Of a stretch of DNA of 64,000 nt, positions 21,355 through 24,182 are shown one piece after another. This stretch comes from Halorussus halobius (GTDB taxonomy: Archaea > Halobacteriota > Halobacteria > Halobacteriales > Haladaptataceae), in NCBI RefSeq assembly GCF_004765805.1, contig NZ_ML219773.1, positions 186,001-250,000 of the forward strand, given 5' to 3'. The translations under genes were made by a program, and so were the position numbers. The notes below the pieces were generated by a model, which did no database searches, was not told the DNA's origin, and worked only from the letters and a program-made list of their open reading frames with translations. How positions within the stretch are numbered: position 1 is the first letter of the stretch; every line of letters begins with the position of its first letter.

Positions 21355-22779
21355 ATGAAAGAATACCAAACTATCACGGAGATTAGCGGTCCGCTGGTGT
21401 TCGCCGAAGTCGACGAGCCCATCGGGTACGACGAGATCGTCGAGATCGAGACCCCGGACGGCGAGACCAAGCGCGGACAGGTGCTCGAATCGAGCGACGG
21501 GCTCGTCTCGATTCAGGTGTTCGAGGGCACCGAGGGCATCGACACCGAGAGTTCGGTGCGATTCCTCGGCGAGACGATGAAGATGCCGGTGACCGAGGAC
21601 CTGCTCGGGCGCGTGCTCGACGGGTCGGGCAACCCCATCGACGGCGGTCCCGACATCGTGCCCGACGAGCGTCGGGACATCGTCGGCGCGGCCATCAACC
21701 CGTACGCCCGCGAGTACCCCGAGGAGTTCATCCAGACCGGCGTCTCGGCCATCGACGGCATGAACACGCTGGTCCGGGGCCAGAAGCTCCCCATCTTCTC
21801 GGCGTCCGGGCTTCCGCACAACGAACTCGCGCTCCAGATCGCGCGACAGGCGACCGTGCCCGAAGAGGAGGAAGCCGGCGACGACGACGATGGCTCGGAG
21901 TTCGCGGTCGTCTTCGGCGCGATGGGCATCACCGCCGAGGAGGCCAACGAGTTCATGGAGGACTTCGAGCGCACGGGCGCGCTCGAGCGCTCGGTCGTGT
22001 TCACCAACCTCGCCGACGACCCGGCGGTCGAGCGGCAGGTCACCCCGCGACTCGTGCTCACCACCGCCGAGTACCTCGCGTTCGAGAAGGGCTACCACGT
22101 GCTGGTCATCCTGACGGACATGACCAACTACTGCGAGGCCCTGCGCGAGATCGGCGCGGCCCGCGAGGAGGTGCCGGGCCGGCGTGGCTACCCCGGGTAC
22201 ATGTACACCGACCTCGCCCAGCTCTACGAGCGCGCGGGCCGCATCAAGGGTCGCGAGGGGTCGGTCACCCAGATTCCCATCCTCACGATGCCGGGCGACG
22301 ACGACACCCACCCGATTCCGGACCTGACCGGCTACATCACTGAGGGCCAGATCATGCTCGACCGCGGGCTCGACAGCGAGGGCATCGACCCGCCGATAAA
22401 CGTGCTGCCGAGCCTCTCGCGGCTGATGGACGACGGTATCGGCGAGGGGCTGACCCGCGAGGACCACGGCGACATCTCCGACCAGATGTACGCCGCCTAC
22501 GCGCAGGGCGAGGACCTGCGCGACCTCGTGAACATCGTCGGCCGCGAGGCCCTCTCCGAGCGCGACAACCAGTACCTCGACTTCGCCGACCGGTTCGAGC
22601 AGGAGTTCGTCCAGCAGGGCTTCGACACGGACCGCTCCATCGACGAGACCCTCGACATCGGCTGGGACCTGCTCGGGATGCTCCCGAAGGAGGAGCTCAA
22701 CCGCATCGACGAGGAACTCATCGAGAAGTACTACCCCGAGAGCGACGAGGAGACGGCCGAGGAAGTCGCGGCCGACTGA
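21355..22779 (+). CDS. atpB: A-type ATP synthase subunit B
   Basis: The 474-aa regulatory (non-catalytic) subunit that alternates with A in the head. It lacks a Walker A loop at the position where A has one ([20 protein letters not shown]), as expected. The [15 protein letters not shown] segment contributes to the A/B interface. It is followed by a T-run likely to end the main operon transcript; atpD lies 1.4 kb further on. Confidence 0.97.
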
Positions 22780-22802
22780 CGACGCTTCGCGTTTCGGTCC
22801 CG

Positions 22803-22807
22803 TTTTT
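22803..22807 (+). terminator. T-run terminator after atpB
   Basis: CCCGTTTTTCGC follows the atpB stop by about two dozen bases. This U-rich tract probably ends the atpHIKECFAB transcript, leaving atpD to its own promoter. Confidence 0.5.
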
Positions 22808-22932
22808 CGCGGTGGGATTCTGCGTGCTATCGGGTCTCGACAGCACCGACGTAGCGATATTTCGGGAACCGGGTAAAATCTACGCGGGCAAAAGATTGAT
22901 TTATGTGGGGTGGGGACTTGTGGGTGGTTCCC

Positions 22933-23022
22933 ATGAACCACTTCATCGAAGAACTCGACGACGAACCGGACCACACCAAGGACGCGAACCACTACACGGA
23001 CGACGACCCCCACATCGGGTGA
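22933..23022 (+). CDS. Acidic 29-residue microprotein ORF between atpB and ATP-grasp gene
   Basis: An ATG-to-TGA frame of 29 residues starting MNHFIEELDDEPDH. It holds ten Asp/Glu, four His, two Thr, one Lys and one Tyr, and ends DDDPHIG. A TATA-like GATTTATGTG lies about 30 bases before the ATG, which suits a leaderless or short-leader mRNA. It converges with the ATP-grasp ligase gene, whose stop is 76 bases away. A substrate peptide for that ligase is one possibility. No homologue is known to me, and it could be a chance frame. Confidence 0.4.
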   Translation: MNHFIEELDDEPDHTKDANHYTDDDPHIG

Positions 23023-23098
23023 GTCGCGCCGTCGCGGTTCCGGCGGCTTCGAACGTTGGTCTCTCGACGTTCGGGGCGCGGCGGGACTCGCGTCCCAC

Positions 23099-24040
23099 TC
23101 ATTCGACGAGAAGTTCCGCGAGCGCGCCGGAAACGTCCTGCCCGGCGTCCACGTCGGCCGGCGCGAACTGCGGCGATTCGTTCAGTTCCAACACTGCGTG
23201 AGTCCCGTCCGGTCGCCGGCGGACGTCCGCCGCCGCGAACGCGAGGCCCGCCAGTTCGGCCGCACGGACCACGTCGTCCTCGACCTCGTCGGGGACCGGG
23301 ACCGCCTCGACGTCGACTTCCTCGTCGCGCACGAGGTCGATTTTGAACGAGAAGTTGTCAGTCCGGCTTTCGTACCGAATCGCCCCCGCGACCTCGCCGT
23401 CCACGACGTAGATGCGGAGGTCGTCGCCGTCGACGTACTCCTGAAACTGGACCGGCGCGGTCGCGAGGTCGGCGAGCCGGTCGGGTTCGACGTCGGCCTC
23501 GGTCAGTTCGTGGGGGACGCCGCCTCTGGTGACCGGTTTGTACACCACGCGGTCGTGGGACTCGTAGAACGAGACGACCTCGCTCGGGTCGTTCGTGAAC
23601 AGCGTGTCGGGAACGGGGACGTTCGCGCGTCCGAGCAGGTACAGTTGCCACGGCTTCCGGTCCTGCCATCGGTGTTTCGACGGTCGCGTGACCACTTCGG
23701 CACCGTGCCAGTCGAGTATCCGACAGAGGCTGTCGAACATCCCCCGGTACTCCCGCAACTGGTTGAGCGCCGGAACGGGGTCGTCCCGAAGCCGCTCCCC
23801 GTGTCGCGGTTCGAACGGCCGGAAGAGCTGATGGCAGTTCACCAACGCGCCGGTCACCGCCTCGAACTCGACCCGCGTGCCGAACACGGCGGCCTCGTCG
23901 TCGGTTGCGAGCGCGAGGGGTTCGTCCCCCGGCCAGTCGGTTACGTCGCAGACGACGGCTTCGTGCCCGAGGCGCTCGATAGCCTCGGTGAGCAGGTCAA
24001 TCTCCGCTCGTTCCTCGGCGTCGATGACGAGAACCGACAT
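23099..24040 (-). CDS. ATP-grasp ligase, RimK/graspetide-ligase-like
   Basis: A 313-aa ATP-grasp enzyme that would join a carboxylate to an amine or hydroxyl through an acyl phosphate. Visible motifs: RKPWQLYLLGRANVPVPDTL then FTND (128-151), VVYKP with the ATP lysine (165-169), FQEYVDGDDLRIYVV (199-213) and the metal-binding LELNESPQF (284-292). The KP-x-QL...P-TL-TND...VVYKP series is close to peptide-modifying (microviridin/graspetide-type) ligases as I recall them; a RimK-like glutamate ligase is the alternative. ATG 24040 was chosen over GTG 24049 because CGATTTATTCG lies about 28 bases before it. It separates atpB from atpD on the opposite strand. Confidence 0.8.
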   Translation of the reverse strand: MSVLVIDAEERAEIDLLTEAIERLGHEAVVCDVTDWPGDEPLALATDDEAAVFGTRVEFEAVTGALVNCHQLFRPFEPRHGERLRDDPVPALNQLREYRGMFDSLCRILDWHGAEVVTRPSKHRWQDRKPWQLYLLGRANVPVPDTLFTNDPSEVVSFYESHDRVVYKPVTRGGVPHELTEADVEPDRLADLATAPVQFQEYVDGDDLRIYVVDGEVAGAIRYESRTDNFSFKIDLVRDEEVDVEAVPVPDEVEDDVVRAAELAGLAFAAADVRRRPDGTHAVLELNESPQFAPADVDAGQDVSGALAELLVE

Positions 24041-24182
24041 ACGTTCCACGTCGAACGCCGGACGAATAAATCGGTTCCGCTGGACGCCCCGTCACCCGCG
24101 GGATACCGACCTGACCCGAACGGCGTCGCCGGGACACCGACTGTAAACAGTTAACCCGTTCCAGCAACAAACACCACCCAAG

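Follow-up and report, generated by a model that had tools for sequence, protein, structure and literature searches.

To our knowledge, the modified peptides characterized so far from archaea are mainly lanthipeptides, and leader proteases are known for few members of the graspetides. A graspetide core is defined by donor residues (Ser, Thr or Lys) and acceptor residues (Asp or Glu) (PMC9576775). According to one survey, which mentions archaea only in general terms, every graspetide characterized up to then was a protease inhibitor (PMC8939145). A 2026 survey (PMC13097080) describes a tandem-repeat precursor for plesiocin and an NHLM transporter/peptidase for the group 2 graspetides, and lists one group (36) found only in the Thermoprotea. 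For groups 26, 30, 32 and 40 the same survey gives neighbouring proteases or peptidase transporters whose family is left unstated, so that haloarchaeal members may be hidden in its tables; no report of a haloarchaeal graspetide family was found in the literature, and the main text of two archaeal RiPP surveys mentions neither ATP-grasp enzymes nor graspetides. Proteases of the M50 family are known to process two other kinds of peptide, the epipeptides and the pearlins (PMC10885120).

Here these systems are compared with a two-gene cassette, consisting of a precursor gene and a ligase gene, that lies between atpB and atpD within the window (the whole stretch of 64,000 nucleotides of Halorussus halobius DNA that was analysed). 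Judged from profile comparisons and a structural model, precursor and ligase very probably form a minimal graspetide-type RiPP cassette. If true, this adds a graspetide family in the haloarchaea, a group with good genetics, whose precursors are 28-49 residues long; some of these approach or fall under the length at which genes are usually called, and this helps to account for such loci having been overlooked.

A cassette within the ATP synthase genes

The features of the locus, in window coordinates, are the following.

21355-22779, forward strand: atpB (A-type ATP synthase subunit B), the upstream flank, outside the system
22900-22904, forward strand: TATA-like box TTTAT, 33 bases 5' of the precursor ATG, recognized from the DNA sequence
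22933-23022, forward strand: precursor peptide gene MNHFIEELDDEPDHTKDANHYTDDDPHIG, 29 codons plus TGA, with homologous frames at ligase loci
22933-22956, forward strand: conserved leader motif MNHFIEEL, residues 1-8, from the family consensus
22987-23019, forward strand: putative core NHYTDDDPHIG, residues 19-29, by alignment with the C-terminal region, which varies across the family
23099-24040, reverse strand: graspetide-type ATP-grasp ligase, 313 aa, ATG at 24040, from profiles, fold and conserved residues
24183-24881, forward strand: atpD (A-type ATP synthase subunit D), the downstream flank

The precursor and ligase genes are convergent, their stop codons being 76 bases apart (23023-23098), and the 29-residue peptide contains ten Asp/Glu, one Lys and two Thr. 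In these respects, as in the TATA-like box and the position inside the ATP synthase locus, a preliminary description of this DNA was accurate. It had also held the tail-to-tail order to be atypical for such clusters, an objection that falls away, given that the precursors of relatives are convergent, divergent or co-directional with respect to the ligase.

Among the Halorussus genomes in which both atpB and atpD are readable on the fetched stretch, the cassette occupies the gap between them in the window genome (a gap of 1,403 bases) and in one other genome (G012); in the others the gap measures about 140-290 bases (in some cases including variable last codons of atpB) and contains neither cassette gene. 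The atpD upstream element ACTGTAAA..GTTAACCC is retained 5' of atpD in the window, which points to a separate promoter for atpD and to a site where insertions are tolerated. The cassette lies between two genes, atpB and atpD, that are probably expressed separately.

The gap itself (window 22780-24182; atpB loci L080-L097) is a variable site within the genus, short in most genomes, and several other Halorussus genomes carry a different, unrelated sequence inserted 3' of atpB. At another locus (L002) a TnpB-like gene with Cas12f1-like TNB and OrfB_IS605 domains (L002:3023-3910) lies upstream of the ligase, its end 50-90 bases away, and the same arrangement occurs at L010, that is, in two Halorussus genomes; the presence of this gene beside the ligase suggests a mobility route for the cassette.

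The ligase, its precursors and their distribution

The ligase ORF on the reverse strand contains the motifs RKPWQLYLLGRANVPVPDTL, FTND, VVYKP and LELNESPQF, from which the preliminary description had likened it to graspetide ligases while leaving a RimK-like role open. Among NCBIfam models the best family is TIGR04187 (ribosomal peptide maturase; GRASP_SAV_5884) with 106 bits, as against 61 for MvdC, 60 for MvdD, 58 for the RimK family and 45 for LysX; these 106 bits fall below the curated TIGR04187 cut-off of 350, so that the ligase is taken to be a distant relative inside the branch. (In Pfam the top score belongs to the broad RimK domain, which does not discriminate among such enzymes.) When solved structures are searched by phmmer with the single ligase sequence, PsnB is the best match (1.2e-39), and a profile of 16 relatives yields 209 bits for PsnB, 80 for CdnC, 76 for PruB, 74 and 72 for MdnB and MdnC, 68 for AMdnB and 50 or less for RimK, ArgX and LysX. 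An AF2 model of the ligase (pLDDT 91, from 26 aligned sequences) retrieves PsnB chains as its first 15 PDB matches by Foldseek, then PruB, AMdnB and MdnC, with ArgX, LysX and RimK appearing later. The ten conserved ATP-grasp positions that were checked (Lys129, Lys168, Glu201, Asp207, Arg209, Asp214, Asp272, Arg274, Glu285 and Asn287) are all intact. On profile scores and predicted fold, the window protein is a graspetide-type ligase whose nearest solved relative is PsnB, as the preliminary description had surmised; a RimK or LysX identity is rejected on the same scores and fold ranking.

In a tree that included only three reference ligases, the haloarchaeal sequences form two clades, and PsnB and a Vampirovibrio sequence fall between these with modest support (81/68 for the placement of PsnB). 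Three loci encode tandem ligases (L046:7027-7980 at the second locus of the window genome, G000 C2; L054:7043-7990; L055:6688-7644). In all three genomes the first ligase of the tandem carries Lys129->Arg and Lys168->Gln and has thus lost both ATP-grasp lysines, with Glu285 and Asn287 retained; it may be a non-catalytic subunit that partners the second ligase.

Nearly all ligase loci examined have a short acidic ORF nearby, and these ORFs resemble one another at the N-terminus; in total there are 22 related precursor genes. Examples are MDHYINDLNDEDEHRENIQHTCDGACPT from Halorussus aquaticus (likewise tail-to-tail within the atp locus), MEHFIENINEEDFAEVEERENTYYTGGCIAYC from G011 and MNETFIEALNEEETLEDREQTQHTSAPHDDK from the second locus of the window genome. 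Nearly all share the consensus H-F-I/V-E-x-L close to the N-terminus, a leader motif that may serve as the docking site for the ligase, and vary at the C-terminus. Most of the 22 genes have TTTA(A/T) or a similar element at about -32 to -39, in keeping with a promoter function for the TATA-like box. When the window peptide is left out of the profile, it is still recovered, with E = 1e-4 among some 8,400 small ORFs (the best non-family ORF having E = 0.76); with the window and G012 peptides both held out, they are recovered with E = 0.0019 and 2.2e-6 (best non-family, 0.34), and in leave-clade-out profiles every held-out group ranks above all non-family ORFs. A search of 28 family genomes with the precursor profile gives 13 strong matches (E of 2e-8 or better), every one of them no more than about 2 kb from one of the 13 ligase loci (a count that omits a distant ligase homologue in G013), and the next match, with E = 0.01, lies inside a long ORF. 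Because these 13 matches were themselves training members of the profile, the weight of this result rests on the lack of strong matches elsewhere and on the held-out test.

Codon comparisons, which had been proposed as a check on the microgene, give a signal for close relatives. Judged by their substitutions, close precursor pairs show purifying selection: pS is 0.34 and pN 0.03 for G182/G136 (where third positions account for 10 of 11 changes), 0.32 and 0.11 for G000b/G021, and 0.50 and 0.24 for G011a/G019, the pair G136/G141 having been left out of the comparison for indel misalignment. For the window and G012 peptides themselves the third-base pattern gives no signal (pS 0.41, pN 0.40), as these are so divergent that no codon signature persists and gap placement is uncertain. 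Neither of the two outcomes that the preliminary description had named as refuting its idea, a best score to RimK/LysX or a frame not conserved alongside the ligase, came about: the frame is conserved in company with the ligase and is missing where the ligase is missing. In Pfam and NCBIfam the 29-codon frame has no family match. Because of its held-out recovery and of the one-to-one, genome-wide co-occurrence with ligase loci, the 29-codon frame is, on these comparative measures, a real gene, and at the level of genes the preliminary proposal of a new archaeal peptide-modifying pair was right.

Ligase relatives occur in 10 of the 28 family genomes, all of one genus; at the level of the order, 21 of 392 sampled genomes, representing 10 genera, have them; the only bacterial homologue found is in a Vampirovibrio MAG (L003). 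The usual haloarchaeal set consists of a precursor, a ligase and a membrane M50 protease. More distant haloarchaeal ATP-grasp relatives at L065 (G175) and L069 (G013) have neither a precursor nor an M50 gene that can be recognised in their vicinity. Two public plasmid records, from Halorussus salilacus and Halocatena salina, annotate the ligase as an ATP-grasp protein, and that of Halorussus salilacus annotates the M50 protease too; at the positions of the precursors identified in this analysis neither record lists a gene, in a gene table that is by design incomplete.

Core chemistry, leader removal and alternative readings

TTxxxxEE is the plesiocin-type motif that Lee, Park and Kim are said to have described in 2017. 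The clade I precursors have TTLAVGEE, TTMAMGEE or TT(M/L)ATGE cores behind an HF(V/I)E(D/E)LEERxNA leader, and TTxxxxEE cores are present in the haloarchaeal relatives G191, G285 and G338, which share the leader with the rest of the family. The window sequences belong to clade II, whose cores are short and divergent, and the window peptide lacks the TTxxxxEE motif: its putative core contains Thr22 and Asp23-25, with Thr15, Lys16 and Asp17 just before it, a boundary placed by alignment. The plesiocin leader is LFIEDL-like, a resemblance of use only as a lead, and the plesiocin precursor was not found among PDB sequences, whether the query was the precursor profile or a single precursor. The haloarchaeal leader precedes canonical TTxxxxEE cores in one clade and cores free of acids in another, which provides a directly testable series for drift in ligase chemistry. 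In the Vampirovibrio MAG, a glycine-rich protein with seven [ST]TxxxxEE repeats (L003:3206-3931) is encoded upstream of the ATP-grasp ligase and is a probable multi-core precursor of plesiocin type.

Under the favoured reading, the 29-residue peptide would be a ribosomally made precursor with MNHFIEEL as a very short leader. The ligase would bind this leader, phosphorylate a carboxylate with ATP and couple the activated carboxylate to the side chain of a Thr (or Lys) close by, so that the C-terminal segment would form one or two rings, macrolactone or macrolactam, with the loss of one water per ring. Candidate donors in the window peptide are Thr15, Thr22 and Lys16, and candidate acceptors Asp17 and Asp23-25, among which the connectivity is not predictable. 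In most relatives the membrane M50 metalloprotease would then remove the leader and free the peptide; in the window this step might fall to a different protease or be performed in trans by the one at G000 C2, the only such enzyme in the genome. The peptide so released would probably be secreted as a protease inhibitor, an antagonist or a signal.

The M50 protease, a third partner overlooked in the preliminary description, is encoded in most relatives by a gene for a membrane protein of 300-350 aa that adjoins the ligase. HExxH and GDG are invariant across 18 such M50 proteins, all of which match the model of the daptide HExxH protease (NF041824), 14 of them also matching that of the YydH/LiaK epipeptide protease, with scores below the cut-offs of both models (56 against 300 and 31 against 225 bits); in a fold search the top-ranked match is the site-2 protease SpoIVFB, at a weak E-value. 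Predicted secondary structure hinted at an RRE/PqqD domain at the M50 N-terminus, which had no profile or fold match and is not claimed. Within the family the M50 gene occurs in eight genomes, all eight of which carry the ligase, so recurrent a partner being a candidate leader protease for graspetides. No M50 gene lies beside the ligase at the window locus or at that of G012; the window genome has a single copy, at its second locus, and G012 has none anywhere in its genome. At one further locus (L057:5793-7285, in G035) the cassette is decayed, with an M50 protein of 170 aa that lacks HExxH and no recognisable precursor.

Several other readings bear on these observations. Four of the 22 precursors (G019, G025, G011b and G024a) have no Asp or Glu after the R/K-x-N motif, and their ligases keep the conserved residues, except that Glu201 is Ala in G011b; hence the canonical cross-link is not universal in the window clade. 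Because these members lack an acceptor acid in the core and retain largely intact ligases, it is conceivable, if unlikely, that ligases of the Halorussus-type clade form no links to Asp/Glu side chains and instead close the C-terminal carboxylate on a conserved Thr, Ser or Cys, giving lactone or thiolactone signal peptides that a site-2-type protease would release. Such archaeal signals would be analogous in form to the staphylococcal autoinducing peptides. A pearlin-like or RimK/LysX-like pathway, in which the ligase would add an amino acid to the C-terminus of the peptide (or to a Glu side chain) with the peptide as carrier and the M50 protease releasing the product, as do TglG and TmoG in pearlins, is quite improbable: it draws on the common ATP-grasp superfamily, on the 45-58 bits of the RimK and LysX profiles, on the small, acidic peptides and on the release of C-terminal products by M50 proteases in pearlin pathways (PMC10885120), but PsnB and other graspetide ligases rank far above RimK and LysX by sequence and fold, the C-termini of the peptides are their most variable part, unlike those of a carrier with a C-terminal acceptor, and the sister clade has TTxxxxEE cores behind the same leader.

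That the window copy is a relic, its protease partner lost and its precursor and ligase silent or decaying within the atp operon, is improbable; the missing M50 gene in cis, its complete absence from G012 with the same atp-locus arrangement, and the decay seen in G035 speak for it, whereas both window ORFs are intact, the ligase has every checked residue, a TATA-like box is present and the two genomes with the cassette at this site have both preserved the microgene even though their ligases are only 60% identical. The very shortness of the 29-codon frame and its lack of a database family would suit a chance ORF, with the substrate of the ligase lying elsewhere; its recovery by held-out profiles, its one-to-one pairing with ligase loci across the 28 genomes and purifying selection in close relative pairs make the likelihood of this almost negligible. 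A graspetide-type cassette remains the favoured reading.

Comparison with described systems

The RimK, LysX and ArgX enzymes share the ATP-grasp superfamily with the window ligase but rank below graspetide ligases in score and fold, and the locus contains neither a LysW nor an S6 partner. The M50 proteases of daptides (NF041824) and epipeptides (YydH/LiaK/EpeP) are the best matches of the haloarchaeal third gene, which differs in being paired with an ATP-grasp ligase and which is not part of the window cassette. The Thermoprotea graspetides of group 36 (PMC13097080) resemble the present loci in being archaeal; they belong to another lineage and are reported to have a segregation-like partner rather than an M50 protease. 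Ligases of the microviridin type (MdnB/MdnC) and chryseoviridin type (CdnC) have the same fold and domain plan as the window ligase, but score 72-80 bits against 209 for PsnB, and their PFFARFL-type leader motif is absent from the haloarchaeal precursors.

The closest described system is that of plesiocin (PsnA/PsnB, group 2; PDB 7drm-7drp), which likewise employs a single ATP-grasp ligase, of the same branch, and whose TTxxxxEE cores recur in the haloarchaeal sister clade. It differs from the window clade in that the precursors of the latter are 28-40 aa long, contain one diverged core without TTxxxxEE and come from an archaeal host, and in that most haloarchaeal relatives have an M50 membrane protease where group 2 has an NHLM transporter/peptidase (PMC13097080).
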